NCBI RefSeq assembly: GCF_003418935.1 | Contig: NZ_QVMT01000010.1 | Location: forward strand, 1 to 64,000 | DNA: 64,000 nt | Reading direction: 5' to 3' | Origin: Emticicia sp. C21 | GTDB lineage: Bacteria; Bacteroidota; Bacteroidia; Cytophagales; Spirosomataceae | Shown: piece after piece, positions 11,463 to 45,176 of the stretch | Layout: each line of letters starts with the position of its first letter | Numbering within the stretch: position 1 is the stretch's first letter | Translations under genes and position numbers: made by a program | Notes under the pieces: model-generated | What the model saw: only the letters and a program-made list of their open reading frames with translations | Told to the model about the DNA's origin: nothing | Database searches by the model: none

Positions 11463-11489
11463 TATTATTTAAAAACATTAAAAAAGAGA

Positions 11490-13318: not shown

Positions 13319-13379
13319 TGATTGTTATTATCTTTGAGAAACAATCAACCTGAACTATTCAACTCTAAATAAAGTTTTG

Positions 13380-23370: not shown

Positions 23371-26300
23371 ATGAAAAAAAATGTACTTGTACAGTTTTTA
23401 TTGGCTATTCTGCTGATTCCATCGATAATAATAGCCCAGAATACCGATGCCACCATTAATTCTACACTTTCCGGGCGGGTTATTGACGAGAAAACTAACG
23501 AACCACTTATTGGTGCTACCGTTCAGATTAAAGGCACAACGCACGGTGTTATTACTGATGCTGAAGGTAAGTTTCAATTCAGAACCGGACAGAAAATTCC
23601 TTATATACTTATAGTTAATTATATAGGATATGAGTTAAAAGAAGTTTTGGCCAATACAAACACCATTACTATCACACTTCAAACCAATGCCAAACAATTG
23701 AGCGAGGTAGTGGTGGTTGGATACGGTACTCAGGAACGTAAAAACCTTATTGGCTCCATAACAAAAGTTGACCCTACAGAAGTAAACGCCATTCCGGTTG
23801 GAAGCATTGATGCCCAACTACAGGGTAAAGTTTCAGGCGTTCAGATTTCTTCGCCAACGGGTGTACCCGGTGAAACGGTTAATGTAAGAGTGCGTGGTGC
23901 TACGTCAATTAATGCGGATAATGATCCTTTATATGTAATTGACGGGGTTTTTGTGAATAGTAATAGCTTGCAAACGATTAGCACCGGTGGTAAATCAACC
24001 TCACCAATTGCTGACCTGAATCCTGTTGATATTGAGAGTATTGAGGTATTAAAAGATGCCGAAGCAACAGCTTTATATGGTTCAAGAGGGGCAAATGGTG
24101 TGATTTTAATCACTACCAAAAGGGGAAACTTTGAGCAAGCGCCGAAAGTAAACTTTAATGTAAGCTATGGACAAGCCAAAGCCATAAAACTTTGGGAGTT
24201 GACCACAGGCCCGGAACATGCGCAATTAGTAAATGAATGGTGGATTAATACAGGAAAAGATACGCCTTCATTGAACAGAACAACTGCCAACCGTCCGTTC
24301 AGACCAGTTTCAGAAGGTGGGAGAGGATTACCGGAAGAACAACAGACATATGATAGATTAGGTGAAGCATTCCGTACTGCTACATTGCAAAGCTATGATA
24401 TCTCACTGGTCGGAGGTACTAAAACAACCAGGTATTATATTGGTGGAGGATACAACTCTCAGGAAGCAATTTTAAGACCTATTACATTTAATAGAGCGAG
24501 TTTTAAAGTAAACCTTGACCAGAAAATAAATGATAGAATCCAGATTGGTGTAAGTAATTCGTTCAGTCGCACCTATCGTAATCAGGCACGTGCAGGAGAT
24601 GGTCCACAAGGCGGTTTGTTACAAGCAGCATTACATACACCAACTTATCTTTCTCCTACTGAAAACGGTGTTTTCGTGGGCCGTGCAGGTTTTGATAACC
24701 TAACATTACTCCTTCAGAATTACGATGTCCACTCAACCAGCTTGCGCTATGTTGGTAACTTATATGCCGAAGCAGAACTATTGCCTAACCTGAAACTTCG
24801 TTCAAGTTGGGGAGTTGATTATAATAATTATAATGAATCTGAATACTGGAATACATTTCTATTGCTAGGTGCTCAGGGTGGGCTTGCCACTTCATCCATC
24901 AGCCAGTTTACTTCCTTATTAAATGAGCAAACACTTACTTATCGCCAAAAAATCGGCAAAAAACACTCATTTGGCTTAATAGTAGGGAATACCCTGCAAA
25001 GCGATGTTTTAACCAGAACTTATGCCGAAGGCCGCGGATTTGCCAATAATTCATTCAAAATTATTTCTTCGGCTGCTACGACCATCAGTAGCCAGAACTG
25101 GAGCAAAAGTACTTTGGCCTCTTTCTTCGCCAAAGCAGATTATGGCTTTAATGGAAAATACCTTGTCAATTTTAGCGTGAGAGCCGATGGTTCTTCAAGG
25201 TTTGGTAATGCCCGTAAATGGGGGTACTTCCCGGCCTTTGGTGCTGCATGGAGAATCAAACAGGAAAATTTCCTGAAAGATGTAGCGTTTTTGAGTGATT
25301 TAAAATTACGCACCAGCTACGGAATTGTTGGAAATCAGAATGGTATCGGAAACTTTGCTGCTCAAGGACTCTGGACTGGCGGTGCACCGTACCAAGGTAA
25401 TCCGGGTATTGCACCACAGCAGTTGGCTAACCCGGATTTGAAATGGGAGCGTACTAACCAGTTTAATGTAGGCTTAGATGCCTCATTCCTAAATGGTAGA
25501 ATTGGATTCGAAATAAACTATTATAACAAGTATACACGTGATGGGCTGCTGCAATTGGCATTGCCAAGCACGACAGGGTTTGCCAACTACTGGAGCAACG
25601 CAGCTGAAATCAGCAATAAGGGTTTTGAGCTGAATATCAATACTATAAACTACGAAAGAGGTGATTTCAGATGGACAAGTAACCTGAATCTAGCACAAAA
25701 CGTCAATAAAATTGAAAAACTGGATAACCCGCTTCGTTATGGCAGTCGTGAGTTGATTCTTCAGCAGCAAGGTACGCCATTGTATTCTTTCTGGGTATAT
25801 AAACAATTATATGTGAATCCTGAGAACGGAAATGTGGTGTATGAAGATGTAAACAAAGATGGACAAATTACCGTAGCGGACCGTCAGATTTTAGGCAGTA
25901 TCTGGCCTAAGTTCTTCGGTGGATTCACTAATAATTTAAGCTATAAAGGCTTCGAACTATCAGCATTCCTTGCCTTCCAATACGGAAATAAAGTTTACAA
26001 TCACAATAAGTTTTTTGGCGAAGGCGGTGGTGCTAGAGACGCTGCCCGTATAATTTTTGCCAGCAACAACGCCAGATGGCAGAAACAGGGTGATATTACC
26101 GATGTGCCAAGACCAGACGGAGTAAATGTAAATAACTACCGCGATGGTGGAAGCCGCTGGTTGGAAGATGGCTCATTTTTACGCCTTCGCAGCTTGAACT
26201 TAGCTTATAACTTCCCGAAATCGCTTGCCGCTAAGTTAAAGGCAGATAATTTGAAAATATACATAAACGGTACTAACCTGTTTTTATTAACTAAATATAC

Positions 26301-26412
26301 TGGCCTTGACCCTGAATCAAGCTCGAGCAGTGACCAGAATGCACAAGGTATTGATTTAGGAACTCCTCCTCAGCCCCGTAGCTTTCAGGCAGGTTTAAGC
26401 CTTACTTTCTAA
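23371..26412 (+). CDS. SusC/RagA-family TonB-linked transporter, head of the molybdoenzyme operon
   Basis: 1013 residues: signal peptide (to about residue 22, IIIAQ), carboxypeptidase-like sandwich domain (LSGRVIDEKTNEPLIGATVQ), TonB-box region (QLSEVVVVGYGTQERKN), plug with ALYGSRGANGVILITTKRGN, and a barrel ending in SFQAGLSLTF. Complete and intact, unlike the related gene at 41715-44158. It would import a substrate across the outer membrane with the SusD encoded 28 bp downstream. No glycosidase is linked. The downstream genes are redox enzymes, so the ligand may be a small oxidisable compound rather than a polysaccharide (inference). Confidence 0.93.
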   Translation: MKKNVLVQFLLAILLIPSIIIAQNTDATINSTLSGRVIDEKTNEPLIGATVQIKGTTHGVITDAEGKFQFRTGQKIPYILIVNYIGYELKEVLANTNTITITLQTNAKQLSEVVVVGYGTQERKNLIGSITKVDPTEVNAIPVGSIDAQLQGKVSGVQISSPTGVPGETVNVRVRGATSINADNDPLYVIDGVFVNSNSLQTISTGGKSTSPIADLNPVDIESIEVLKDAEATALYGSRGANGVILITTKRGNFEQAPKVNFNVSYGQAKAIKLWELTTGPEHAQLVNEWWINTGKDTPSLNRTTANRPFRPVSEGGRGLPEEQQTYDRLGEAFRTATLQSYDISLVGGTKTTRYYIGGGYNSQEAILRPITFNRASFKVNLDQKINDRIQIGVSNSFSRTYRNQARAGDGPQGGLLQAALHTPTYLSPTENGVFVGRAGFDNLTLLLQNYDVHSTSLRYVGNLYAEAELLPNLKLRSSWGVDYNNYNESEYWNTFLLLGAQGGLATSSISQFTSLLNEQTLTYRQKIGKKHSFGLIVGNTLQSDVLTRTYAEGRGFANNSFKIISSAATTISSQNWSKSTLASFFAKADYGFNGKYLVNFSVRADGSSRFGNARKWGYFPAFGAAWRIKQENFLKDVAFLSDLKLRTSYGIVGNQNGIGNFAAQGLWTGGAPYQGNPGIAPQQLANPDLKWERTNQFNVGLDASFLNGRIGFEINYYNKYTRDGLLQLALPSTTGFANYWSNAAEISNKGFELNINTINYERGDFRWTSNLNLAQNVNKIEKLDNPLRYGSRELILQQQGTPLYSFWVYKQLYVNPENGNVVYEDVNKDGQITVADRQILGSIWPKFFGGFTNNLSYKGFELSAFLAFQYGNKVYNHNKFFGEGGGARDAARIIFASNNARWQKQGDITDVPRPDGVNVNNYRDGGSRWLEDGSFLRLRSLNLAYNFPKSLAAKLKADNLKIYINGTNLFLLTKYTGLDPESSSSSDQNAQGIDLGTPPQPRSFQAGLSLTF

Positions 26413-26440
26413 GTAATCATCAAAAACGAAATTAAGAAAA

Positions 26441-27778
26441 ATGAGATCATTCAAATATATATTATCTGTTGGATTATTAGCCCTATCAGCTTCCTGCAGT
26501 AATTTTTTAGATGTAAAGCCTTTAGAGTCTATTTCTGACGCCCAAACTATTTTTGATAAAAGCTCAGCTGAAACAGCGTTAAGAGGTGTTTATTCAGCGT
26601 TGAGTAACGGGGGATATTACGGAACGACCTTTCAATCAATCGGCTATTTATCAGGTGATAATATCCAGTGGACAGGGTCACAATCGCAAGTGCAGGAATT
26701 TATCAATAAAAAAATAAATCCTGAAAACTCAACTATCTCAGGTGCATGGACGGCCATCTATCGTACCATTAACAGAGCCAATAATGTTATTGACAAAGTA
26801 CCAATTGTGAAGGATCCGCTTCTGACAGAAGCCTTGAAGAATCAGATAGTTGGAGAAGCCTATTTTATCAGAGCTCTATCGTATTTTGATTTAGCCCGTA
26901 CCTGGGGAGGTGTGCCTTTGATTACCAAACCGACGGCCAACCCGACTGAAAACAGTGGTGTCAAGAGAAGCACTCAGGCAGAAACCTATGCGCTTGTTTT
27001 AAAAGACCTGGAAACCGCAGAGTCATTGCTACCATCAACAACAGATCGTTATCGTGCAACGCGTAAAACTGTGTGGGCTTTACGTTCGCGTTTGCATTTG
27101 TATCTGAAAGAATGGGCGAAGGCTGATGAATACGCCTCAAAACTAATCAGCGATACTAATTATAAACTTCTGAAACCTTATAGTTCATTTTTTGCCAATG
27201 ATGCCAGAGGCACACAGGAATCTGTCTTTGAGATTTTTTACAGTGCTAACGAACAGAATTCTCATCGTGGGCAATGGCAGCCTCAAACGAATGGAGGTAC
27301 TCGCCAATGGGCACCAAACGATGCACTAGTGGCACTTTTAAACGACCCAAAAGTGGGGGGTGGGCGCAGTGCATTGGTTGCAAAAGATAACCAGAATCGT
27401 TGGTATGGGAATTTGTACTACCGTACACCTGCTACTGATCCCAGCTATGTTTTCCGAATCGCTGAATTATACCTGATTCGTGCAGAAGCCAGAGCTAATC
27501 TGGATAAAATAACAGATGGTTTGGCGGATTTGAATGCCATACGCGACCGCGCAAGCATAGATCTAAGCACGGCTTCAACCAAAGAAGAACTTTTACTAGA
27601 TATTGAAAACGAAAGAAGATTGGAATTTGCATTGGAGCCACATCGCTGGTTCGATATAGTCCGTACAGGTCGTGCAACACCCGTTTTCAATATAACAGAC
27701 CAGAACAGGCTTTTATTGCCTATTCCGGTTGGAGAGATTCAGATAGATAAAGCTTTGACCCAAAACCCAGGGTATTAA
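26441..27778 (+). CDS. SusD/RagB-family lipoprotein
   Basis: 445 residues. The lipoprotein signal MRSFKYILSVGLLALSASC places the lipid-modified Cys at about 19. Helical SusD hallmarks are present: VGEAYFIRALSYFDLARTWGGVPL, IAELYLIRAEARANL, ENERRLEFALEPHRWFDIVR, and the classical ending LLLPIPVGEIQ...TQNPGY. It caps the SusC channel on the cell surface. It is shorter than the first SusD of the window (588 residues), which suggests a smaller ligand-binding face. A hairpin without a T-tract follows it, before the membrane-protein genes. Confidence 0.94.
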   Translation: MRSFKYILSVGLLALSASCSNFLDVKPLESISDAQTIFDKSSAETALRGVYSALSNGGYYGTTFQSIGYLSGDNIQWTGSQSQVQEFINKKINPENSTISGAWTAIYRTINRANNVIDKVPIVKDPLLTEALKNQIVGEAYFIRALSYFDLARTWGGVPLITKPTANPTENSGVKRSTQAETYALVLKDLETAESLLPSTTDRYRATRKTVWALRSRLHLYLKEWAKADEYASKLISDTNYKLLKPYSSFFANDARGTQESVFEIFYSANEQNSHRGQWQPQTNGGTRQWAPNDALVALLNDPKVGGGRSALVAKDNQNRWYGNLYYRTPATDPSYVFRIAELYLIRAEARANLDKITDGLADLNAIRDRASIDLSTASTKEELLLDIENERRLEFALEPHRWFDIVRTGRATPVFNITDQNRLLLPIPVGEIQIDKALTQNPGY

Positions 27779-27788
27779 GATTTATAAT

Positions 27789-27826
27789 AATGAAATCTGC
27801 AAGAAGGTAATCTTGCAGATTTCATT
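27789..27826 (+). promoter_or_regulatory. Intercistronic hairpin between susD and the membrane-protein genes
   Basis: A 16-bp perfect stem (27789-27804 with 27811-27826) with a 6-nt loop begins 11 bp after the susD stop. No T-run follows (AAATCCTAAG), so it is a poor terminator. It may instead protect the susCD part of the mRNA or cause partial read-through. Confidence 0.55.
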
Positions 27827-27865
27827 AAATCCTAAGATGACTATTCTTACCTAAAATTTTATACT

Positions 27866-29209
27866 ATGTCTAAAATTCTTGAACTTAACTCTCAAAGTCA
27901 CTGGAGTAATTCTGAAAAAACAGCCTTTAAGTTTTTCGGAATTTATTTCTTTTTACATGTGCTACCAATAGATTTACGGTTCTTCAAGCACCTGTTCTCA
28001 ACTAACTGGCTTCATGTACAATACCGTGATATTTTCTATTTATCAAGGTATTCACCAACATTTACAGGCTATGATAGCTTTATTAATTGGTTAATTATTA
28101 TCATTATTGCCGCTATCGGCACATTTCTTTGGGATAAAATTTATACCAAAGAAATAAATTACGATAAACTTTATTACTGGCTGAGAGTACTGGTACGTTA
28201 TCGATTAGCCATAGGTATTATTGCTTATGGTTTTTTAAAATTCTTCCCAATTCAGGCACCATTTCCATCTATCAGTAATCTGAATACCAATTATGGTGAT
28301 TTCAATGCCTGGAAATTATTTTCGCTTGGATTGGGAGTTGTACCCAATTATCAGTCTTTTCTAGGTTTGGTTGAGATTATCAGCGGTTTATTGCTTTTGA
28401 ATCGCAAAACCACAACTATTGCTACCTTGATTATATTACCATTTGCAGGCAATGTTGCTATTTCAAATATAGCTTATGAGGGCGGCGAATATGTGTATGC
28501 TTTCTATCTGGTTAGCTTGGCACTTTACCTTTTCGCTTTTGACGCTATTCGCTTGTTCAACCTACTATCACTTGATAAACCAACGGCTCCAAATCGTTTC
28601 CAACCGGTTTTTAGTGGTAATTGGAAGCGCTATCGTATTGGACTAAAAACGATTTTCATTTTGTTTTTTGTAGTTTTTTATGGCCTCAGGACATATGCTG
28701 GCTATAAAAACAAAGGCTATCATTTCCCCAAAACTAAAGGAATTGAAAATATCAGCGGATTATATAATGTAAGCGAATTCAGATGGAATAACCAGGTGAT
28801 TCCGTACTCAAAAACAGATTCAACCCGCTGGCAAAATATTGTATTTGAAAAATGGAATACGATAAGCATTAAATCGAATAAGCATGTTATTATTGAGAAT
28901 TTACCAACCGAAGAGCTTTATAACGATGATGCCAGCCGCATCTATGAACTGGCAGGTACACAAGGACGTCATTACTATAGCTATGATTTTGATTCTACCA
29001 GATCAACACTTTCTCTGCAAAACCGAAACAAAAATCATCCTTTTGATAAATTCTCTTTATCGTTCAAAAAGCTGAATGATTCAACTATTGTATTGTCGGG
29101 AATAAGTACAGGAAAAGATTCAGTCTATGCGGTTTTGAACAAAATCAATAAAAAATACCTGACAATCGAGGCAAAGAAAGCAGGTCGCAGAAATGCCTTA
29201 AAATTATAA
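27866..29209 (+). CDS. DoxX-like integral membrane protein, tandem paralogue 1
   Basis: 447 residues with about six to seven membrane helices between 25 and 285 and a soluble C-terminal domain (about 295-447). It is clearly paralogous to the next gene: both have WLHVQYRDIFYLSR/WLHLHYRDLYDIAR near residue 50-65, a YYWL-x-VLVRYR segment, a YGFLKFFP/FGFTKLTP helix, and the C-terminal pattern YNVSEFRWNNQVIPYS...TRWQNIVFEKW. The first part resembles DoxX/thiosulfate:quinone oxidoreductase-type membrane subunits; this is a resemblance by eye, not a firm match. It probably acts at the inner membrane with the downstream cytochrome and molybdoenzymes. Confidence 0.6.
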   Translation: MSKILELNSQSHWSNSEKTAFKFFGIYFFLHVLPIDLRFFKHLFSTNWLHVQYRDIFYLSRYSPTFTGYDSFINWLIIIIIAAIGTFLWDKIYTKEINYDKLYYWLRVLVRYRLAIGIIAYGFLKFFPIQAPFPSISNLNTNYGDFNAWKLFSLGLGVVPNYQSFLGLVEIISGLLLLNRKTTTIATLIILPFAGNVAISNIAYEGGEYVYAFYLVSLALYLFAFDAIRLFNLLSLDKPTAPNRFQPVFSGNWKRYRIGLKTIFILFFVVFYGLRTYAGYKNKGYHFPKTKGIENISGLYNVSEFRWNNQVIPYSKTDSTRWQNIVFEKWNTISIKSNKHVIIENLPTEELYNDDASRIYELAGTQGRHYYSYDFDSTRSTLSLQNRNKNHPFDKFSLSFKKLNDSTIVLSGISTGKDSVYAVLNKINKKYLTIEAKKAGRRNALKL

Positions 29210-29236
29210 TTCTTACCATTTCAACTCAATACAATT

Positions 29237-30895
29237 ATGTCTGATTCAAACTTAAAGATAGTTCAGGAAGATTTGGGAGTAGAATTACCTGAAGAAACTT
29301 TAGAAATTAAAAAAGCTGCTAAACCACAACCCTGGAAAAACTGGCAAAAAATAGCTTTTCGAATAGCTTTTGTATTTTTCATAGCTATGACATTACCTAA
29401 TAGCCTTGATTGGTACAAAGAGATTTTTACTTTCGACTGGCTTCATTTACACTATCGTGATTTATATGATATTGCCCGTTTCGGATCAGGGCTTAATTTT
29501 TTTGGTAGCCGGATTTTTGGCTCACCTCTTAATGGCTATGCCGTTTGGATTATTACGCTGATTTTTGCCATTGCCGTAGGCATAATCTGGACAGCTATTG
29601 CAAAAATCAGACAAAAAGAAAGTGCAGAATATACCAAACTATATTATTGGCTGAATGTCATTGTTCGTTACCGCGCAGGTATTGGCATCATTGGTTTTGG
29701 CTTCACAAAACTAACACCGACACAATTACCTTATCCTTCATGGGGTGTGCTCAATACCGATTTTGGTGATTTGACATTGCAGAAAATATACTGGTTATCT
29801 ATAGGTATTGTGCCATGGTACGAAGTCTTTACAGGTATTGTTGAGGTAGCCGCCGGAGCATTATTATTTTTCAGAGCTACAACCTTCTGGGGTGCAGTTC
29901 TGCTTTTCGGTGCATTAGCTGATATTGTTTATGTTAATTTTGCATACGATGGTGGTGTACATGTATACAGCTCATATTTCGTATTATTCTCGGCCTTTTT
30001 GCTGATTGCTTATATTCCGAGAATCTACAATCTGTTGATTCTTGAAAAATATACGGTACCATTTGTATACTATCCGGTATTCTCAAATGCATGGCAGAGA
30101 ATTACTCGTATTACCTTAAAAACTGCCACTATTGTCTTATTCCTACCTGTATTTCTTTATCTGGCAATTGTAAACTTTTTGTATGACCCTTACAAACAAC
30201 CAGCTTTGAAGGGTATAAAAGAATTAAGGGGAAATTATAACGTAACAGAATTTAAAATCAATAATCAGGCAATACCTTACTCACCATTAGATACTACCAG
30301 ATGGCAGCAGGCAACTTTTGAAAAATGGACAACCCTGACATTCAAAACCAATAAACCGGTTGAGTTAGACTTATCAAATGGGGGCGGAGCTCCTATGAGA
30401 GACATTAACCGGACTTTTGAGTTAACGGGAGTAGCAGGTGGTCAGCGGGTATTTTATTATGAAGCCGATACTGTAAACCATGTATTGTATTTGCAGGATA
30501 AAAACCGTGGTAACCGTCAGGAAGGTCGTGAGTTTTTAGGTAATAGAACAGATTTTGGTGGAGATGGTAAAACCAATGCTCAAGCCAGGAAAAAAGGAGA
30601 AAAATCGAAAACTGATAATTGGATCCCAAAAGAAGCGAAGGCAAGTATAGGCTCAGAAGACAAGAAAATTGAGCCTATTGCCTATTCTGCACGTCGTACT
30701 AAAGGAATTGCGGCAGAAAGCCGCCCAGGTAAACGTAATCGAATGGTATTGAAGTATAATGTGCTGAATGGTGGAGAAAGAGTTATTCTATCAGGTATCA
30801 ACGAAAATAAAGACTCTATTCATGTGGTTTTAGATCGTTATGATAAGAAATATGCATTATCAAGAAGCACACTTGAAGCTGGGAAATATGATTAA
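29237..30895 (+). CDS. DoxX-like integral membrane protein, tandem paralogue 2
   Basis: 552 residues, about 100 longer than its neighbour. The extra length comes from an N-terminal tail and a Lys/Gly-rich stretch at about 430-500 (NRGNRQEGREFLG, KNAQ-like repeats). The membrane part (about 45-320) and the C-terminal pattern YNVTEFKINNQAIPYSPLDTTRWQ mirror the first copy. The two genes are 27 bp apart and surely co-transcribed, which suggests a heterodimer. Role unknown. Candidates are quinone-reducing membrane partners of the periplasmic oxidoreductases encoded downstream. The haem-free, Cys-poor sequence argues against direct electron transfer through metals. Confidence 0.6.
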   Translation: MSDSNLKIVQEDLGVELPEETLEIKKAAKPQPWKNWQKIAFRIAFVFFIAMTLPNSLDWYKEIFTFDWLHLHYRDLYDIARFGSGLNFFGSRIFGSPLNGYAVWIITLIFAIAVGIIWTAIAKIRQKESAEYTKLYYWLNVIVRYRAGIGIIGFGFTKLTPTQLPYPSWGVLNTDFGDLTLQKIYWLSIGIVPWYEVFTGIVEVAAGALLFFRATTFWGAVLLFGALADIVYVNFAYDGGVHVYSSYFVLFSAFLLIAYIPRIYNLLILEKYTVPFVYYPVFSNAWQRITRITLKTATIVLFLPVFLYLAIVNFLYDPYKQPALKGIKELRGNYNVTEFKINNQAIPYSPLDTTRWQQATFEKWTTLTFKTNKPVELDLSNGGGAPMRDINRTFELTGVAGGQRVFYYEADTVNHVLYLQDKNRGNRQEGREFLGNRTDFGGDGKTNAQARKKGEKSKTDNWIPKEAKASIGSEDKKIEPIAYSARRTKGIAAESRPGKRNRMVLKYNVLNGGERVILSGINENKDSIHVVLDRYDKKYALSRSTLEAGKYD

Positions 30896-30953
30896 TACTT
30901 ATAGATTTATTAGTAATGTCATCATTTTGAGTTTTAAATTCTATTTATAAATC

Positions 30954-31583
30954 GTGATTTATAATCAAAAAACAAGTATAAAATTATCATTGCTACTTTT
31001 CGGTGGAATCTCCTTTCAGGCTTGCTATCAAGCTATGAGTCAGGAAAATTCCACCGAAAAGTATGCAATTGTTTCAAAAAAGAGAGAGATTTCAAATGAT
31101 ACCTTACCCAGTTCATTTGGTTTCGGAAGAAAGGCAACTCAGGTTGAAATTGACCGTCTGGATATTGATGTGCGACCAGATGGTAAGGGGCTACCGGCAG
31201 GATCGGGTTTAGCAGCAAAAGGTAAATTAATTTTTGATGCTAAATGCTTTGCCTGTCATGGAGTAGGTGGTATTGGTGGACCAAATGGTTCGTTGGTAAC
31301 AAACAAAGCGCCAGTAGCTGCTGCGCGGAAAGAAAAAACAATTGGAAATTATTGGCCTTATGCTACTACTGTTTTCGATTATATCCGTCGGGCAATGCCA
31401 TTTAATGAGCCAGGTTCACTCACAAATGAAGAAGTCTATCATCTGACAGCCTATCTGCTAAGAGCCAATGAAATTATTGATGAAAATACAGTTATCAATG
31501 CTAAGACCTTACCTAAAATTGAGATGCCTGCCAGAGATTTATTTATCCCTGACGACCGCAAAGGAGGGCCTGAAATCAGATGA
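30954..31583 (+). CDS. SoxD-like monohaem cytochrome c
   Basis: 209 residues from a GTG at 30954; no nearer ATG gives a signal sequence. The N-terminus (IKLSLLLFGGISFQAC) is a signal peptide with a lipobox-like end. The haem motif CFACH is at about 98-102 and the axial Met lies in RRAMPFNEPGSL. The stretch KTIGNYWPYATTVFDYIRRAMPF is typical of the cytochrome partner (SoxD) of sulfite dehydrogenase SoxC. It overlaps the following molybdoenzyme gene by 4 bp (ATGA), so the two are translationally coupled and likely form an enzyme-cytochrome pair in the periplasm. Confidence 0.82.
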   Translation: MIYNQKTSIKLSLLLFGGISFQACYQAMSQENSTEKYAIVSKKREISNDTLPSSFGFGRKATQVEIDRLDIDVRPDGKGLPAGSGLAAKGKLIFDAKCFACHGVGGIGGPNGSLVTNKAPVAAARKEKTIGNYWPYATTVFDYIRRAMPFNEPGSLTNEEVYHLTAYLLRANEIIDENTVINAKTLPKIEMPARDLFIPDDRKGGPEIR

Positions 31584-32833
31584 AAATGGAAAGATTAGTT
31601 GAAATAGCTCAGAAATTTCCGAAGAAACTATCCAGAAGAAAGTTGCTGGGCGGGGCAGCTACTGCCGCAGTTGCTATTATTCAAACGGCAAAGGGTCAGA
31701 CCATCCAGAAAGGGCTTTCTGAAAATCTTATTGGAGATGACCCAACCAAGAAATTCGGTAAGCCTGCGGGAGAAGTTGGAAGCCGATCACCGTTTGTGAA
31801 ATCTGTTAAAAAGCCATCTGATATATCATCACGGTCACCGTTACAGGATTTTTATGGTATTATTACCCCATCTGACTTGCATTTTGAACGTCATCATGCA
31901 GGTGTTCCGGCAATTGATCCTTCTAAGCATGAATTACTTATTCATGGTTTAGTCGAAAAACCACTTATTTTCACTGTAACAGATTTAAAGCGTTTCCCTT
32001 CGGTTTCGCGAATAGCCTTTTTAGAGTGTTCTGGTAATTTCAGAGGTGGTAAAGAAAATCTTACACCTCAGGAAATCTGCGGCTTAACCAGTCAGAGCGA
32101 GTGGACTGGCGTAAAGCTTTCAACGCTTTTTAATGAAGTAGGTGTAAAACCAAACGCAACATGGTTTCTGGCAGAAGGAGGCGATGCTGCTGTTCTGACG
32201 CGAAGTATTCCGGTAAAAAAAGGATGGGATGATGCCATTATTGCCTATGCACAAAATGGGGAACCGTTAAGACCAGAGCAGGGTTTCCCAGTAAGATTAT
32301 TCCTACCGGGTTGGGAGGGTAATACTGGTGTAAAGTGGCTTCGAAGATTAGAACTATCAGATGCACCCTATTATACTCGTGAGGAAACATCGAAATACAC
32401 CGAGCCAATCAAAGATGGTAAATACCGGATTTTCAGTTTTGATATTGATGCACGTTCAATTATTACTTTTCCCTCATACCCACAAAAAGTTGAAAAAGGC
32501 TGGATAGAAATCCGTGGCTTAGCATGGTCTGGCAGAGGAAAAGTTGTGAGGGTAGAAGTAAGCACAGATGCAGGTAAAAACTGGAAGATAGCTCAACTTA
32601 ATGAACCGGTTCTGGATAAAGCCCATATCCAATTCAGGCATTTATGGCAATGGAAAGGGGAGGAAACTGAGATTTTAAGCCGGGTAACAGACGAAACAGG
32701 CTATACTCAACCAACTTTAAAGCAACTATTTGAAGCAAGGGGCAGCGAAGGTGGCTACCATATGAATCCAATTACTGCCTGGCAGGTAAAAAAAGACGGA
32801 GGAGTATTATTTAAGCCTGAAACTTTCAGATAG
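31580..32833 (+). CDS. Tat-exported sulfite-oxidase-family molybdoenzyme (SoxC-like)
   Basis: 417 residues. A twin-arginine signal LSRRKLLGGAATAAVAII (about 18-35) directs the folded protein to the periplasm. The molybdopterin domain contains the Mo-ligand Cys in FLECSGNFRGG (near 150) and VRLFLPGWEGNTGVKWLRRLE (near 240). A C-terminal dimerisation domain follows (GLAWSGRGKVVRVEVSTDAGKNW, about 315-337). SoxC with SoxD oxidises sulfite or sulfur intermediates bound to SoxYZ, but no SoxYZ, A, B or X genes are here. The substrate may be free sulfite or another small molecule. The coupled cytochrome upstream would take the electrons. Confidence 0.85.
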   Translation: MKMERLVEIAQKFPKKLSRRKLLGGAATAAVAIIQTAKGQTIQKGLSENLIGDDPTKKFGKPAGEVGSRSPFVKSVKKPSDISSRSPLQDFYGIITPSDLHFERHHAGVPAIDPSKHELLIHGLVEKPLIFTVTDLKRFPSVSRIAFLECSGNFRGGKENLTPQEICGLTSQSEWTGVKLSTLFNEVGVKPNATWFLAEGGDAAVLTRSIPVKKGWDDAIIAYAQNGEPLRPEQGFPVRLFLPGWEGNTGVKWLRRLELSDAPYYTREETSKYTEPIKDGKYRIFSFDIDARSIITFPSYPQKVEKGWIEIRGLAWSGRGKVVRVEVSTDAGKNWKIAQLNEPVLDKAHIQFRHLWQWKGEETEILSRVTDETGYTQPTLKQLFEARGSEGGYHMNPITAWQVKKDGGVLFKPETFR

Positions 32834-32928
32834 AGTTTCAAAACAATTATTTGGAATTTACAACAAGTAATCAGACTTTAGGATAATCAAATTCTATCTG
32901 TAAGTTTAAAGAAAGTACCTAAGCATTA

Positions 32929-33414
32929 ATGAAAATAGATTTTATTGTAAACGATAAGCCTATCTCTGTTGACGTAGACCCCGATATGCCACTTTTGTGG
33001 GTAGTTAGAGATGAATTAGGGCTAAAGGCAACTAAGTACGGCTGTGGAAAAGCATTGTGCGGCGCATGTACCTTACATCTTGATGGGGACGCTATTCGTT
33101 CATGTTCGTTTCCGGTACAGTATGTTGCCAATAAAAAAGTAAGAACTTTAGAAGGGCTATGTCTCAATAAAGAAACACTGCACCCTATTCAGCAAACCTG
33201 GATTGATGAAAATGTACCTCAGTGTGGCTATTGCCAGCCGGGTTTTATGATGGCTGCTGCTAAATTTATTGAAACCAACGATAATCCGACTGAGGAAGAA
33301 ATAAAATCGGGTATTACAAATATCTGCCGTTGTGGTACACAACCCCGTATCATAAAAGCTATTAAAAGAGCTGTGGCTATTAAGCAATCTACTCAACCTA
33401 AAGATAAGCTATGA
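32929..33414 (+). CDS. (2Fe-2S) subunit of a xanthine-oxidase-family dehydrogenase (IorA-like)
   Basis: 161 residues carrying two [2Fe-2S] clusters: a plant-ferredoxin type site CGCGKALCGAC (Cys39, 44, 47 and 59) and an alpha-helical site with QCGYCQPGFMMAA and ICRCGTQPRI. This is the small subunit of isoquinoline 1-oxidoreductase/aldehyde dehydrogenase-type enzymes, which pass electrons from the Mo centre to a cytochrome. It has no signal of its own and is probably exported with the large subunit by a hitch-hiker mechanism. It overlaps the next gene by 4 bp. Confidence 0.92.
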   Translation: MKIDFIVNDKPISVDVDPDMPLLWVVRDELGLKATKYGCGKALCGACTLHLDGDAIRSCSFPVQYVANKKVRTLEGLCLNKETLHPIQQTWIDENVPQCGYCQPGFMMAAAKFIETNDNPTEEEIKSGITNICRCGTQPRIIKAIKRAVAIKQSTQPKDKL

Positions 33415-35576
33415 CTACTGCCAATACTAAAAAGCTTTCGAGACGTAAATTCTTTCAGAGAGGGGCTATCGTATTAGGTGGGGTGATAGTGGCTACTTAT
33501 CTGGGACGTGGTGTTATAAGAAGATTTGCGGCACAACTGGCAGAAGATATGGATGCTCCCGCATTGATTGCCAATAATGAATCATTAATATGGTTTGAAA
33601 TACTGCCTGATAATACAGTTCTCATCAAATCGCCTAAAATTGAAATGGGACAGGGGATTTTTACCGGTTTTGCCATGCTGGCTGCAGAAGAACTGGATGT
33701 TTCATTAAATCAGATTAAAGTGATTCATGCCAATACTGCCGATGGGCCAGTTGATAGAATCAGTACTGGTGGGAGTAGTTCTACCTCTTCGTTATATAAG
33801 TCAATCAGAGAAATGGCCGCATATATAAGAGAAATGCTCAAAGAAACTGCGGCTAAAAAATGGAGTGTTTCTGTATTTAAAGTTAATACGCAAGATGGGA
33901 TATTGTCTTCCGAAGCGCATAAAATTACTTATGCAGATTTAGCGAAATCTACCATAGAATGGGAAGAGCCTGCGACACCTGAGCTAAGACCTGCCAGTCA
34001 ATTCAAATTTGTAGGCAAAGAAGTAAAGCGTACAGATCTGAGACCAAAAGTTTTTGGCGAACCAATCTATGCCATAGATCAATCCTTGCCAGATATGGTT
34101 TATGCGACTTTACTCCAATCACCTTATATAGAAGCAATTATCAGGCATATGGAAATAAAGGAGGCTTTAAAACAGCTAGGTGTTATAAGGGTAATTCAGG
34201 AAGAGGACCTGGTAGCTGTAATTGCCAAAAACCGTTATGCTGCTGAAAAAGGACTTGAGAAAATACGAGTGGAATGGGATATTCCGGAAAAATGGCAACA
34301 GGCTGAAATTGAAAAATTAACGAAGGTTGGTGTAGGTAATGAGGTGAGTGTTCAAAAAGTTGGTTCTGCAAAGGGAATACTGAAAGAGAATAACGATGAG
34401 GTTTTTACCGAGCAATATCGCACGTCTATTGGAGCTCATGCACACATGGAGCCTAATGGTGCTATCGCCAATTATCACAATGGTAAGCTAAAAATTATTA
34501 TAGGCACTCAAGCACCCGATTTATTGAGAAAGGCTGTTGCCTCAGCACTAGATTTATCTGTTGATGATGTAGAGATAGAACTGACCTTTGCAGGAGGAGC
34601 ATTCGGTAGAAGAATGGATACAAAATTAGCCATCGGCGCAGCCAGAATTTCAAAGATTATTGGAAAACCTGTGCAGCTGTTTAATACCCGCGAGCAGGAG
34701 TTTCTTAATGGAGTTTATCGACCTCAGACACATCATGTATTAGCCGCTAAAATTTCTCAAACTGGTGCTGTTGAAGCCGTTACGCATGACCAGGCTACAC
34801 CTGACCAAATATTTGCACAGATTCCAGCTGATTTGGGTCCTACTGTTTTTGGTGCAGACTTTATTTCTGCAGGTCATGGGGCAAGTATCATGTACAATGT
34901 AGAAAATAAAGCAGCTACTATGTGGCACAATAAATTACCGATAGAGGTGGGAATCTGGCGTGGCGTAGGAATGTTTGCCAATACGTTTGCTATTGAGAGT
35001 TTTTTCAATGAATTAGCTTATAAAACAAGTAATGACCCAATTGCATTTCGAATAGAATTGCTACAAGGAAAGGAGAAAATCAATCAGAGATGTGTTAAAG
35101 TACTAGAAACCCTGAGAGAAAAAAGCGAGTGGAACCAGACAAAAGCTGGTGGTATAGGTAGAGGAATGGCTATTTGCAATGATAGAAAAACAATCTCTGC
35201 TGTTGTGGCTGAAGTTAAGGTTATGGATAAGAAAATTCAGGTAGTAAAAATAACACAAGTAATAGATGCAGGTCTGGCGATTAATCCTGATGGTATTCGG
35301 ATGCAGGTAGAGGGTGCTACCATGATGGGTATTACAGCGGCTTTATACGAGGAAATTATCATTGAGGATGCGCGTATAATCAATAGCAACTTTGATAAAT
35401 ATCCAATGGTGACTTTAGCTGATACACCTAAAATCAATGTCGTAATTGTGGAAGGGGAAGTGGTGCCACTGGGAGTAGGAGAGCCGCCTTTATCGCCTGT
35501 GGCTCCTGCTATTGCTGCAGCAGTTTTTGATTTAACTGGTCAGAGATTGAGAAGTTTACCAATGAAACTTTCCTGA
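33411..35576 (+). CDS. Molybdopterin-binding subunit of an IorB-like aldehyde/isoquinoline dehydrogenase
   Basis: 721 residues. The Tat signal LSRRKFFQRGAIVLGGVIVA (9-28) is followed by the Mo-binding domains. Visible hallmarks: MGQGIFTGFAMLAAEELD, FAGGAFGRRMDTKLA, WRGVGMFANTFAIESF, and the catalytic Glu in LGVGEPPLSPVAPAIAAAV near the C-terminus. It hydroxylates an aldehyde or N-heterocycle using water as the oxygen source. The use of IorB rather than a three-subunit CoxLMS form implies a cytochrome acceptor and no flavin subunit; none is encoded here. It is the last gene of the operon. The true substrate is unknown. Confidence 0.9.
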   Translation: MTTANTKKLSRRKFFQRGAIVLGGVIVATYLGRGVIRRFAAQLAEDMDAPALIANNESLIWFEILPDNTVLIKSPKIEMGQGIFTGFAMLAAEELDVSLNQIKVIHANTADGPVDRISTGGSSSTSSLYKSIREMAAYIREMLKETAAKKWSVSVFKVNTQDGILSSEAHKITYADLAKSTIEWEEPATPELRPASQFKFVGKEVKRTDLRPKVFGEPIYAIDQSLPDMVYATLLQSPYIEAIIRHMEIKEALKQLGVIRVIQEEDLVAVIAKNRYAAEKGLEKIRVEWDIPEKWQQAEIEKLTKVGVGNEVSVQKVGSAKGILKENNDEVFTEQYRTSIGAHAHMEPNGAIANYHNGKLKIIIGTQAPDLLRKAVASALDLSVDDVEIELTFAGGAFGRRMDTKLAIGAARISKIIGKPVQLFNTREQEFLNGVYRPQTHHVLAAKISQTGAVEAVTHDQATPDQIFAQIPADLGPTVFGADFISAGHGASIMYNVENKAATMWHNKLPIEVGIWRGVGMFANTFAIESFFNELAYKTSNDPIAFRIELLQGKEKINQRCVKVLETLREKSEWNQTKAGGIGRGMAICNDRKTISAVVAEVKVMDKKIQVVKITQVIDAGLAINPDGIRMQVEGATMMGITAALYEEIIIEDARIINSNFDKYPMVTLADTPKINVVIVEGEVVPLGVGEPPLSPVAPAIAAAVFDLTGQRLRSLPMKLS

Positions 35577-37396: not shown

Positions 37397-37446
37397 TAAT
37401 TAAACAGATTTCACCGGGCGGCCGCCCGGTGAAATCTGTTTAATTA
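37397..37446. repeat. 50-bp perfect palindrome between convergent genes
   Basis: Every base pairs about the centre between 37421 and 37422 (GG|CC), giving 25-bp arms with no spacer. The middle is very GC-rich and includes a GCGGCCGC site; the outer arms are AT-rich (AATTAAACAG). It most likely works as a bidirectional terminator for the small secreted-protein gene (plus) and the DUF1684 gene (minus), but perfect palindromes of this length are usually unstable. Confidence 0.85.
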
Positions 37447-37488: not shown

Positions 37489-38370
37489 TTAGTGAGACCC
37501 ACTATATTTTTCACCTGCTTTAATGGCTACCGTCAATTGATTTTCTTTCACAGGTAATGGACAGGTAGCATAAGGAGTCAAAGCACAAGGTGGGTTATAA
37601 GCTTTGTTAAAATCTAAATAGATGTTTCCTTCTGCATCCGGTGCTTCTGCATCCAGAAACCGGCCACTGCCGTAGGTTTCATGCTTACTGGTGGCATCGC
37701 TGAATACGAAGTGTAAATGTTCTTTGGTTCCGGTTGCGGCTAGGCTGTATTCTTTGCCATCAATAGTAAAGAGTAGTTTTCCGGGTGAATCCTGCTCATA
37801 CGTTCTTCCGGTTATATCTGTGATGCTCAGTTTTTTCCCTTCTGTTGGCACAAATTTAGTCTTTAGTTTCCAGCTTTCGTTAATCGGGAAAGTCTCGATT
37901 CCTTTAAAGCCCAACAAAAATTCTCCTTCTAAATCCCGCAGCCGGATGGCATATTTATCACCTCTCTGAATGATAAACCAACGCAAGGTTTTATGTTTTA
38001 AAACAGTAGGCCTATTGCTGATATACGGAAAAAGTCTCGCTTCTGTTACCGGGTCATTTGCTTGTAAAACTGTAGCATTTGGAGCAGATTGAAACGTTAC
38101 CTGGCCTTTGTCTAAAATTACTTTTCCGATAAATGGTTCCGCATGATTGGCAGGGAATACGATGGAGTTCTTTTTATCTCCTCCAATCGTATTTTCCCCT
38201 TCTTCAAGCCAGAATAACCCGGCAAGATTCAGCCAGCCTTCTTCACTTTTGAGACTTTCGATTCTTTTTTGATGCCAGGTTTTGATAGAAACTTCATAAG
38301 GCGTTTCTATTATGAACGAGAATGTTATAAATGATAGTAGCAAAGTCAGAGATTTTATGTAATTGTTCAT
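37489..38370 (-). CDS. DUF1684-family exported protein
   Basis: 293 residues with a signal-peptide-like N-terminus (YIKSLTLLLSFITFSFI, about 4-20) and the conserved blocks of DUF1684: WHQKRIESLKSEEGWLNLAGLFWLEEGENTIG (about 32-63), KTLRWFIIQRGDKYAIRLRDLEGEFLLGFKGI, and C-terminal DFNKAYNPPCALTPYATCPLPVKEN. The Cys pair in the last block is conserved in the family. The function is unknown. It lies last in a run of minus-strand genes with TPR, susD and susC genes, two of which are broken; this one looks intact. Confidence 0.85.
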   Translation of the reverse strand: MNNYIKSLTLLLSFITFSFIIETPYEVSIKTWHQKRIESLKSEEGWLNLAGLFWLEEGENTIGGDKKNSIVFPANHAEPFIGKVILDKGQVTFQSAPNATVLQANDPVTEARLFPYISNRPTVLKHKTLRWFIIQRGDKYAIRLRDLEGEFLLGFKGIETFPINESWKLKTKFVPTEGKKLSITDITGRTYEQDSPGKLLFTIDGKEYSLAATGTKEHLHFVFSDATSKHETYGSGRFLDAEAPDAEGNIYLDFNKAYNPPCALTPYATCPLPVKENQLTVAIKAGEKYSGSH

Positions 38371-38418: not shown

Positions 38419-40163
38419 TTACAGTGGAAACAGGCTTTTATCGCCTTGTCTTAGTACTTCATTGAGTTTTTCCTGATACTCATGAAGTTTTTGATGGTCG
38501 TTTGTTTGCTTATAGACTTTGTACAATCCCCAGATACCATTGGCACTATTAGGATGTTTTTTCAGAAGTTCCTGATAAGTTTTTTCAGCTTTATCAAACC
38601 TGTCTTCTTTCAAATGCGCTTCGGCCAGACTAATCAACACTGGTCTGGCATAGGTAGGAGGTTCGCTATAACCTAAGTCTTCTTCTTTTTGTCTGGCTGA
38701 TTCGAGTGTCTTAATAGCTTCTTCATACTTGCCTTCGGCACTTTGTATGACCCCTTGCAATTCAAGAGAAGCTACATTCAAATCATTAATGCGCTTGGTA
38801 CTAATCTGGTCTTTTGATACGGATTGATTGCTATTTCTCCATAAATTTGCATCCAATGCTTCTGAATGTTGTCGGGCAAGTGCCGTATTGTTTTTCTTAA
38901 TGGCAGCCACATACCGGAAGCAAAGTGAAAGAGGGCATTCTTATAAGCAATAGCTTTATTGGTGAATAAACTATCTTTATCAATCTGAATCGCAGAGAGC
39001 TTGTCAGCAGCTTTTTGGTAAAAACCAAAACATAATTCCATTTTAGCAGGAGCAATCACACCCTGATAAAAGAATCTGCCTTCATATTTTCTTTTTCTCT
39101 CCTTAGTCGCCGGCATACTTTTCAGCTTTTCGGCATAATAAAGTGCCGTAGCATATCTTCCATCTTCAGCACAGTTAGCAAGCATATAATTGATATTATG
39201 GATATAATTCCAGGCATCTACCTCCGGAATCTTCTGTTCTTTCATGTAAACAGAGTCAACTTTTACTGCGGCAATAAAAGATTCGTAAGCTTTCTGATAT
39301 TCTCCGGCTTTGTAATAGACATGCCCTGGCATATGCACCATATGACCTGAATTCGGTGCGAGTCTTGATAGCGTTTCAGCACTTTGAAAAGCTTCTGTCG
39401 GACAGCAATTTTCTTTCAGGTGAATCCAGTAGTGATGGGCTGCCGCATTTTCAGGATGCTCCCGAAGAATATCTTTGAGTAAGTATTCAGAGTAAATCTG
39501 CCCATCTCTTGGATTGAGCCTGGTATCATATCCGGCCATTTTACTGAGCGCCAGAAATAGTTTAGCGTCTATGTCTTCGGGATATTTATGAATAATTAGT
39601 TCTAATTTAGACTGATAAGCAGCTTTGCCTCCGGTTTTTTCATCATCCCGCAGAAGAATGGCTTCAGCGTATAGTTTTTCTCTGTCTGTAGCCTTCTCTT
39701 TCAATTTTTTAATTTTATCAAGTGCCAGTTTCTGGTCGGGCTTAAACTCATCACCCTCAATCGCTCCAATAGCGCTGTATAAGCCATAGTACGGCATAAT
39801 AGCCAATGAGTCGTGTTTAATGGCCTCTTTGAAAGCACGGTAGGCTTCAAAATCCCAGAAACAATGCAGTAAGGCTATTCCTTGATTAAAATATTGCTGT
39901 GTTTTAGCCGATTTTGTAGTGATTTTAAAATCTACCTCTCCAATACCCTTGAAGAATATTGGAGGAGGTAAATTTGGAACATAGGCGGTTTCTTTGCGAT
40001 ACTCTAAAATATGCTCCAGGTGGCTGTGTCCATCGTGCGTAACACCGCCGTCGTGCGCCTCTGTATGATTCACGGTGTTCTCATGGTTCTGATGTTCACC
40101 GACACGAACCCTTTGGGCATATATTCCTACCGGAATCAATAGAAAGAAAAGAAAACGTAACAT
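38419..40163 (-). pseudogene. TPR-containing exported protein, frameshifted
   Basis: The N-terminal frame (40163 down to about 38915) has a signal peptide (MLRFLFFLLIPVGIYAQ), a His-rich stretch (HQNHENTVNHTEAHDGG) and TPR helices (YFNQGIALLHCFWDFEAYRAFKEAIKHD). After FHFAS at about 38916 it runs into a sequence without family character. The expected continuation is in another frame: YVAAIKKNNTALARQHSEALD, then EGKYEEAIKTLESARQKEEDLG and KAEKTYQELLKKHPNSANG, to 38419. A single missing base in the CC(C)GG area explains this. The intact protein would be about 580 residues and probably periplasmic. Function unknown. Confidence 0.75.
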
Positions 40164-40214
40164 AGCTCTTGGTATAATGATGAATAACTAGAGTAAAAGA
40201 GACAAAACCTGTGC

Positions 40215-41663
40215 TTATTCAAGCAATAATTTATTGGTTACTATCTCGACATTTGGCAATGGGAAAATGTAATTATCCTGCGATGGCAATACTTCAGGTG
40301 CGTTTAATGAACTGCTCGATTTAGCCGGAAGTGGCAGTAGATTTCTGAGCAAATCATTTGAACGGAAACCTTCTCCCAATAACTCTATTCTTCTTTCAGT
40401 CAGAATAGTAGTAACAAGTGCTGATTGTGTTGAAATAGCTGCAGATGGAAATTCATAAGAAACATCAGAACGATTACGAACGGCTTTCAGTAATTCCAAC
40501 GATTTATTCAAATCTCCCGTTTTAGCAGCAGCTTCGGCATAGTTCAATAGAACCTCCGCGTATCTGATAACCGGCATATAATCCAGGAAAGGAGATGGCT
40601 TATTGTATTTCGTCAGGAATTGTACCCCTGAGGCAGTGCGTGAAAAAGTTCTTCTTAAATCGGTAGATTTCCATTCTTTTTCTCCCCAGATACCTGATGG
40701 ATTCAGATTATATTCTGCATTGGCATTGAATACATAGGGAAAAGAAGATTGCCCGGTCACATTATCTAAATCAGTCATTGGAATCGAAAGGATAGATTCT
40801 GTGCTGGTATAATTTGTCGTAAAAATCTCAACGATATTCTGTAACTTATGATTAACCCCTGAACCAGCGCTGAAAGGCGCAGTGGCAGAAACTATTTTTT
40901 TAGCTTCTTCAATGACCTTCTCATAATTACTGCTATTCAAGTACACACGTGTTTTAAGGGCAATGGCACTATTACGATGGGCACGTGTTGTATTTAATAG
41001 AGAGGATGAATAAGTCAAAGGCAAATCAGCTTCTGCTTCATTCAGGTCTTTTATTATCTGAGCATATACTTCAGCTACGGTGCTTCTTTTTAAATCGTTA
41101 TTAGCGGTTGATTTTTCGGCTGTTAAGCGAAGAGGTAAACCCTTAGATGCACCTTTGTTTTCATTATATGGGCGGGCATATAATGTTACTAAAGCATAAT
41201 AACTTAAAGCCCTTAAAAATTTGGCTTCTGCAATGTATTGTTTGGTTAATATTTCACTCACTACTTTAGGATTTGCTTTCAAGCCATCAATCAATACGTT
41301 GGCATTGTTGATAGTACGGTAACCTGCCTCCCAGAAACCCGCTACAAAATTAGAACCTGAGTTGAGGGTCTGATTCCATGCTTCAAATGCTGTAAAAGTA
41401 TTGCTGGTTCTATTAATAAATTCTTCACCCCGGGCCTCAGTATAGGTATAATAATTACCTCCGTAAAAATTAACTCCTTTTGCTGCTTTATAAACACCAT
41501 TCACGAGACCGAGAATACGGTCTGGAGTATCAAAAGCGTTGGCGCCACTAATAGCAGTGACAGGAGAGGGGTTCAGAAGTTTTTCCTGATCACAACCTGA
41601 TAATACAAGAAGTAAGCCTGTGATAAAACCTGTAGATATGATATGTTTAAATGCCTGTTTCAT
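40215..41663 (-). CDS. SusD/RagB-family lipoprotein beside a broken susC
   Basis: 482 residues from the ATG at 41663, which gives a proper lipoprotein signal (MKQAFKHIISTGFITGLLLVLSGC, Cys24, lipobox LSGC). An upstream in-frame ATG adds 12 lysine-rich residues. SusD hallmarks: YIAEAKFLRALSYYALVTLYARPYN, MPVIRYAEVLLNYAEAAAKTGD, LTERRIELLGEGFRSNDLLRN and the usual hydrophobic ending. The gene appears intact, but its SusC partner 52 bp upstream is a pseudogene, so this SusD may be an orphan or may pair with another SusC. Confidence 0.93.
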   Translation of the reverse strand: MKQAFKHIISTGFITGLLLVLSGCDQEKLLNPSPVTAISGANAFDTPDRILGLVNGVYKAAKGVNFYGGNYYTYTEARGEEFINRTSNTFTAFEAWNQTLNSGSNFVAGFWEAGYRTINNANVLIDGLKANPKVVSEILTKQYIAEAKFLRALSYYALVTLYARPYNENKGASKGLPLRLTAEKSTANNDLKRSTVAEVYAQIIKDLNEAEADLPLTYSSSLLNTTRAHRNSAIALKTRVYLNSSNYEKVIEEAKKIVSATAPFSAGSGVNHKLQNIVEIFTTNYTSTESILSIPMTDLDNVTGQSSFPYVFNANAEYNLNPSGIWGEKEWKSTDLRRTFSRTASGVQFLTKYNKPSPFLDYMPVIRYAEVLLNYAEAAAKTGDLNKSLELLKAVRNRSDVSYEFPSAAISTQSALVTTILTERRIELLGEGFRSNDLLRNLLPLPAKSSSSLNAPEVLPSQDNYIFPLPNVEIVTNKLLLE

Positions 41664-41714
41664 CTTCTTTAATTTTAATTGTCCTTTTTTCTGATTCATT
41701 TTTTGGTCTCAGTC

Positions 41715-44865: not shown

Positions 44866-45176
44866 TTTTAATCCACTCCAAAGTATTTTTAATCTAATTG
44901 CTATATTCTTGATAAAGTACAAGTTATATGTAAATTAATGCTATAATTGGCGATATTATAGCGCAATATTTATAAGCAAACTTTAACAATTTTTTCAAAA
45001 AATAGCTTAATCGCCAAAATAAATTCAATTTTAATAGAAAGTAAGGACTTAGTAAAGTACAATAAAATATATAATCTATATTTTAAGTAGTATATTAAAA
45101 ATATTCTCTCTAACCTTGCAAGCATTAAGCATTGCAAACCTATTCGGCAGCAATCTAAACTTTGCATTATTCTCGT

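Follow-up and report, generated by a model that had tools for sequence, protein, structure and literature searches.

The window analysed here is a stretch of 64,000 nucleotides (positions 1 to 64,000 of contig NZ_QVMT01000010.1) from Emticicia sp. C21, whose genome measures 6.64 Mb. Between positions 23371 and 35576 it holds eight open reading frames (ORFs) on the same strand, namely susC, susD, the membrane protein genes mem1 and mem2, a cytochrome c gene, a gene for a SoxC-family molybdoenzyme, iorA and iorB. SusCD pairs are known mainly as sugar and peptide importers. The locus therefore raises the question of what such a pair does at the head of a row of redox genes, and of how many of these genes belong together. 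The original prediction took all eight for a single system, in which an imported small molecule is oxidised by two periplasmic molybdoenzymes. The ORF list confirmed the eight same-strand genes and two four-base ATGA overlaps, at 31580-31583 and 33411-33414, and the identities given to susC and susD were borne out by TIGR04056 and by the SusD Pfam models. The recurrent unit, however, is made of six genes: susC, susD, mem1, mem2, the gene for a one-heme cytochrome c and that for a Tat-type SoxC-family molybdoenzyme. We propose, giving this reading an even chance, that they form a SusCD-coupled sulfur-oxidation unit, which would take up a sulfur compound and oxidise the sulfite derived from it in the periplasm. 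The features of the locus are as follows.

23371..26412, + strand: susC, SusC/RagA TonB-linked outer-membrane transporter (TIGR04056, E 6e-251, 835.8 bits against a cut-off of 368)
26441..27778, + strand: susD, SusD family (PF14322 and PF07980, both above cut-off)
27788..27827, + strand: 17-bp hairpin in the susD-mem1 gap, without T-run (fold z -6.8)
27866..29209, + strand: mem1, predicted helical bundle with a C-terminal beta-barrel like those of lipocalins, no named family (AlphaFold2, Foldseek)
29237..30895, + strand: mem2, paralogue of mem1 with a longer insert of low confidence (39% identity to mem1; model)
30954..31583, + strand: cytochrome c, single CXXCH, export-like N-terminus (PF00034; sequence reading)
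31580..32833, + strand: SoxC-family molybdoenzyme, twin-arginine signal (TIGR04555 above cut-off; nearest structure 2xts_A)
32929..33414, + strand: iorA, a neighbour judged to lie outside the conserved unit (at none of 80 loci; genome-wide IorB positions)
33411..35576, + strand: iorB, a neighbour judged to lie outside the conserved unit (at none of 80 loci; own partners at other loci)

Recurrence of the six-gene unit

The locus set consists of 80 of 217 Bacteroidota relatives, retrieved by mem2, and linkage frequencies therefore start from this gene. With labels counted anywhere in a locus, flanks of 10 kb included, mem1 and mem2 were each present in 79 loci, susC in 77, susD in 78, the cytochrome in 69 and soxC in 68. 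Co-occurrence of the membrane pair and SoxC with SusCD, a check that the original prediction had put forward, is thus frequent. A gene for a flavin adenine dinucleotide (FAD) oxidoreductase was found in 53 loci, a YeiH-family transporter gene in 30 and an S51 peptidase gene in 17; neither iorA nor iorB was found in any. When runs were defined as same-strand genes with gaps of 400 bases or less, 79 runs contained mem2, and susC and susD were each found in 76 of them, the counts for the cytochrome and soxC being 67 and 66. Within the core the median gaps were 20 bases for susD-mem1, 24 for mem1-mem2, 2 for mem2-cytochrome and 3 for cytochrome-soxC, values that are underestimated, starts being taken from the longest ORF. 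ORF calling also lost mem2 in L040 and L108 (one genome) and the cytochrome in L021 and L031. Genera with loci include Runella, Spirosoma, Dyadobacter, Chitinophaga, Niastella, Mucilaginibacter, Pedobacter, Hymenobacter, Pontibacter and Flavobacterium; among the carriers are Runella limosa DSM 17973, Spirosoma panaciterrae DSM 21099 and Emticicia sp. 21SJ11W-3. Because the order recurs in relatives, it is beyond chance for the first six genes, and for those only. Of the predicted single system, the part made of SusCD, the membrane pair, cytochrome c and SoxC recurs jointly across Bacteroidota, but IorAB does not recur with it. The absence of a sugar-active enzyme, also predicted, holds for the six-gene core, and among the recurrent unnamed neighbours of the unit in relatives no shared substrate enzyme was found.

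Genome counts give the same pairing. In 200 genomes of the family, mem2 matched at E 0.001 or better in 111 and strongly in 66, the strong ones being 62 matches above 700 bits and four fragmentary matches, in G092, G072, G199 and G160. Of the 200 genomes, 62 have a SoxC above the cut-off of TIGR04555. Both genes were found together in 60, SoxC alone in 2 and strong mem2 alone in 6, one of these with soxC fragments. In 45 of these 60 genomes less than 3.5 kb lies between the starts of the two genes; the number rises to 53 with a limit of 12 kb and to 56 with one of 40 kb. Among the last four, the genes are split between contigs in three and 1.3 Mb apart in one. Of 395 genomes sampled from the phylum, 5 had mem2 at E below 1e-100 (27 with any match at 1e-20) and 3 had SoxC above cut-off, the two adjoining in G503 and in the window's own genome. 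The unit is thus common in the family and patchy outside it.

The hairpin between susD and mem1 had been named as a place where transcripts might stop and the unit break. The hairpin itself is real (27788-27827, 17 pairs, -23.4 kcal/mol, with none of 200 shuffles folding as well), but no T-run follows it and its sequence is not kept in relatives. Across 62 relatives the gap has a median of 20 bases, and in the nearest one, L050, it measures 30 bases and has no stable fold. A conserved operon boundary was therefore rejected, the sequence not being common to relatives and the gap being short in most of the 62. The hairpin may still have a lineage-specific role, as nine of the 62 gaps (L052, L053, L054, L057, L058, L060, L066, L090 and L122) hold other folds below -12 kcal/mol, of unrelated sequence.

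IorAB and the block downstream of the unit

IorA and IorB both match models of the xanthine-dehydrogenase/aldehyde-oxidase type; it is their place in the unit, and with it the idea of two molybdoenzymes sharing one system, that is not supported. Close IorB homologues, taken as those above 450 bits, were found in 31 of the 200 family genomes, 18 with strong mem2 and 13 without. In these 18, IorB lies less than 10 kb from mem2 in the window only, 25 kb away in G049, more than 200 kb away in 4 and on another contig in 12. At ten further IorB loci, IorAB stands apart from the unit, with NAD(P)-binding and TetR-type genes upstream in eight (not in L198 or L200); these neighbours were judged by eye, Pfam being run on L193 only. 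An eight-gene system, with SoxC and IorAB jointly oxidising the imported molecule, could draw on the adjacency and ATGA overlaps in the window, on the 25 kb separation in G049, and on the fact that IorB is commoner in genomes with mem2 (18/66 versus 13/134, Fisher p 0.0016, kinship not corrected). Set against its absence from all 80 loci, the 13 IorB genomes that lack strong mem2 and the partners of its own at eight of ten other loci, this makes for a very improbable explanation, and with its genomic positions so scattered IorAB was rejected as a member of the unit.

Two further features on the minus strand bear on how IorAB may have come there.

37489..38370, - strand: DUF1684 protein (PF07920; 13 of 79 runs of relatives hold it together with the unit)
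38419..44158, - strand: second module TPR-susD2-susC2 (in some relatives it separates mem2 from the cytochrome; TPR and susC2 broken here)

In G049, a genome of the same genus whose SusC is 92% identical to that of the window, iorA, iorB and a fatty-acid-hydroxylase gene follow one another as in the window, in a block with DUF1684, TPR, susD2 and susC2. Judged from these arrangements, the junction after soxC in the window, where 95 bases separate soxC from iorA, looks like a rearrangement that brought the IorAB block beside the unit, and IorAB looks like a chance neighbour. The second module is decayed in the window: susC2 lacks about 225 internal residues and has a frame change, and the TPR gene has one near 38910. 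These frame changes may be sequencing error.

Other features were seen in the window. A terminator scan found an inverted repeat of at least 20 pairs (37398-37445) between the fatty-acid-hydroxylase gene and DUF1684. At 45162-46658 lies a TPR protein with relatives near the unit elsewhere (75% identical in L137; L004 and L134 by eye). Downstream of another SusCD pair (8208-13256), a protein encoded at 13377-14906 combines DUF2231, a planctomycete-type cytochrome and leucine-rich repeats.

The redox enzymes and the membrane pair

The molybdoenzyme was rightly described as SoxC-like, with 479.2 bits against the TIGR04555 equivalog cut-off of 420, and it is probably Tat-exported, as had been proposed, since a twin-arginine motif was read by eye. 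Against the SorA model it reaches only 131.8, the cut-off being 600. Its nearest solved structure is 2xts_A (E 1.1e-87), titled sulfite dehydrogenase, which we take to be SoxCD of Paracoccus. The motif REETSKYT is common to both enzymes and invariant in all 12 aligned sequences, that of the window included. When aligned with chain 2a9d of sulfite oxidase, Cys150, Arg104 and Arg155 fall on C185, R138 and R190, which, like Tyr322, we take in chicken numbering to be the molybdenum-binding cysteine and active-site residues important for catalysis. The neighbouring protein had been called SoxD-like. That it is a cytochrome c is confirmed by PF00034, but SoxD has two hemes and this protein has a single CXXCH motif, for which reason it is not a two-heme SoxD.

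The SoxC-type enzyme of Paracoccus works on sulfane sulfur, and this suggests another explanation for the locus, a lithoheterotrophic oxidation of thiosulfate or sulfane sulfur in which mem1 and mem2 would act like the thiosulfate:quinone oxidoreductase DoxDA. The closeness to 2xts, the common REETSKYT motif, the loss in both enzymes of the sulfite-oxidase tyrosine and a weak resemblance of mem1 to DoxX all point this way. The cytochrome, however, has one heme motif rather than two, SusCD should be needless for thiosulfate, and the SoxY model matched none of the 200 family genomes. This model was silent in the control genomes too, so the absence of soxY is not proved; SoxZ, SoxA, SoxB and SoxX were not searched for. 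We hold this explanation to be rather unlikely.

The two membrane proteins are paralogues, as predicted, with 39% identity, and neither has an NCBIfam match, or a Pfam match even at E up to 10. The assignment of mem1 to the membrane comes from its hydrophobic helices; in the AlphaFold2 model (pLDDT 87.6) these are followed by a beta domain at about residues 298-427. For mem1, no Foldseek hit was below E 0.001: an anti-sigma factor ranked first (E 1.9e-3), and an odorant-binding protein, lipocalins and designed barrels came after it. The mem2 model (pLDDT 74.6) gave at best E 0.11. The term "DoxX-like", used for the pair in the original prediction, retains a weak profile similarity on the side of mem1 (25-31% probability with DoxX members), but mem2 reaches only 5-6%; other families tested stayed at 0.3% or less. 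Profiles of DoxX and HTTM are similar to each other, and HTTM is unlike mem1 or mem2. Going by these profiles, a DoxX-like nature of the pair is possible. Distant single mem-like proteins, among the matches listed, have no common theme in their gene contexts. In L132 (8657-9988) and L133 (12199-13524), a lone gene like mem1 lies downstream of a further SusCD pair and of an amidohydrolase gene, some kilobases ahead of the cytochrome and soxC. It is possible, and we suggest it tentatively, that mem1 and mem2 represent a novel type of inner-membrane partner for SusCD, in which a DoxX-like bundle carries a periplasmic lipocalin that would receive the imported organosulfur ligand and link the oxidation of this ligand, by way of sulfite, with the respiratory chain.

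Sulfur context and proposed function

Sulfur genes gather around the unit in relatives. The markers were YeiH, O-acetylhomoserine sulfhydrylase, cysteine desulfurase, TSUP, DASS, encapsulin 2A with its cargo, rhodanese and serine acetyltransferase, and at least one was found in 39 of the 80 loci, versus 1 of 16 control loci. Genes for a type 2A encapsulin and its cysteine-desulfurase cargo follow the unit in L114 and a soxC-less pair in L042; in L130 and L134 they stand upstream. Of the 200 family genomes, 28 have encapsulin shells, and 18 of these also hold mem2; a sulfur role of the type 2A encapsulin is described in the available part of PMC8049743. The four encapsulin loci form a sulfur island, to which some add serine acetyltransferase and sulfhydrylase genes. 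The YeiH homologue of L004 is above the PF03601 cut-off. Of 27 shorter YeiH proteins listed for the family, at least 10 are encoded next to other sulfite-oxidase-family genes, pairs having first been picked by eye, and this gene pairing hints, as independent evidence, that the two belong together. Such pairs were seen away from the unit in G008, G055, G085, G128, G131, G138, G139, G160, G165 and G006. SsuD-like flavin monooxygenase genes lie near soxC in L019, L131, L132 and L133, with an amino-acid permease gene adjoining or one gene off; SsuD is a sulfite-releasing enzyme.

From what was observed, namely the gene content, the recurrence, the co-inheritance and the sulfur neighbourhood in relatives, we infer export (its signal read by eye), the substrate, the direction, the role of the membrane pair and sulfite as intermediate. 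SusC and SusD would import through the outer membrane a small sulfur compound, most probably an organosulfur ligand. The proteins mem1 and mem2 would be anchored in the inner membrane; with their predicted lipocalin-like barrels they might bind this compound or its product in the periplasm, and they may hand electrons to quinone. Sulfite from breakdown of the compound would be oxidised to sulfate by the SoxC-type enzyme, whose electrons would pass to the small cytochrome c. Harm from sulfite could be limited by the YeiH-family transporter, whose gene adjoins the unit in many relatives and lies apart from it in the window's own genome. Context supports the link to sulfur, though not the exact chemistry.

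Several observations weigh against the sulfur-oxidation reading. Some of the relatives used to pick the marker set are also among the 80 loci, and the controls, 16 in number, are a small set drawn mostly from more distant groups, which favoured the difference observed between 39/80 and 1/16. No sulfur marker at all was found in 41 of the 80 loci. The FAD gene and YeiH, which stand 3' of soxC in many relatives, do not adjoin the unit in the window: the YeiH homologue of this genome sits on contig C5, and the FAD gene was not searched for beyond the unit. The YeiH homologue in the L131 operon scores 93.7 against a TIGR00698 cut-off of 232.6, and the window's own genome has no encapsulin match. 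The core unit has no sulfite-releasing enzyme among its genes, no SsuD-like gene was found in the 80 loci with their 10-kb flanks, and the two SsuD-like proteins tested fall below the SsuD cut-off (250 versus 518 bits). Nor need sulfite be the substrate of the enzyme, since the tyrosine of animal sulfite oxidase is missing: Ser271 stands at the position of Tyr322, as in SoxC. In addition, soxC is absent from 13 of the 79 runs, partly since it lies farther away or the run is split by an antisense ORF call.

Loci without sulfur markers, together with the catalytic variety of the sulfite-oxidase family, leave room for a molybdoenzyme acting on a non-sulfur or S-oxide substrate imported by SusCD, the nearby sulfur genes being coincidental. 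With a score above the SoxC equivalog cut-off and with sulfur markers enriched, we find this quite unlikely.

Finally, the uptake pair is loosely tied to the rest, which also speaks against sulfur oxidation as the function of the unit. The correlation of pairwise distances is 0.93 between SusC and SusD, 0.50-0.62 between either and the other four proteins, as if uptake were exchangeable, and 0.70-0.77 among mem1, mem2, cytochrome and SoxC; the pairs are not independent, and species history raises all of these correlations. In the SusC tree of 74 rows, a fully supported branch has on one side the 12 proteins from loci in which an S51 peptidase gene separates susD from mem1; L076 was left out of the tree because an antisense ORF was called between its susD and mem1. 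The decoupled distances and the grouping of S51 loci on one SusC branch suggest that the uptake pair is probably exchanged as a cassette along with the peptidase. An S51 homologue in the L131 region scores 136.8 against the cyanophycinase cut-off of 126.6, which hints that the ligand in that branch may be peptide-like.

TSUP and SoxC are tied to sulfite by family name, and an exchangeable SusCD pair would suit another function, sulfite detoxification only: SoxC and the cytochrome would oxidise sulfite from elsewhere, and SusCD would import something whose metabolism happens to release it. The tie of YeiH to sulfite is experimental, as it is required for sulfite resistance in Salmonella, by a mechanism given as unknown in the available part of PMC12880088. 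SusC and SusD, each in 76 of the 79 runs, are nevertheless too constant for an unrelated uptake system, and we regard detoxification alone as unlikely.

If sulfur oxidation is indeed the function, the unit would be a SusCD locus serving sulfur instead of sugars, and a widespread SusCD operon with a redox sulfur core would show that Bacteroidota acquire and oxidise sulfur compounds via SusCD. Two conserved membrane proteins without family name would also gain a testable context, being tied to the handling of sulfite and, in a small number of relatives, to sulfur encapsulins. No paper pointing to this gene combination was found in the open-access literature, judged by listings, most subscription papers and all preprints being outside its scope.

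The unit can be compared with several described systems. The SoxCD sulfane dehydrogenase (2xts) is the nearest solved relative of the enzyme, shares REETSKYT and has an adjoining cytochrome c partner; here the cytochrome has one heme, the enzyme is coupled to SusCD and two membrane proteins, and SoxY was not found in 200 genomes, with a silent control. SorAB sulfite dehydrogenase likewise joins a periplasmic molybdenum enzyme to a one-heme cytochrome c, SorB, but the enzyme of the unit is far under the SorA cut-off (131.8 versus 600). The DoxDA thiosulfate:quinone oxidoreductase and the DoxX family have a membrane bundle, which in DoxDA comes with a second domain, and a weak profile match to mem1; in the unit there is no Pfam match, the second domain is a predicted lipocalin-like barrel, and the proteins come as a tandem pair. 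With the YeiE-YeiH sulfite resistance of Salmonella, as far as the available part of PMC12880088 describes it, the common element is the YeiH-family transporter that adjoins the unit in relatives, although the operon homologue tested is under the TIGR00698 cut-off. As in SusCD polysaccharide utilisation loci, a SusC/SusD pair heads the operon, but the six-gene core holds redox genes and no sugar-active enzyme. The unit is an ordinary SusCD head joined to an unusual, recurrent redox tail.

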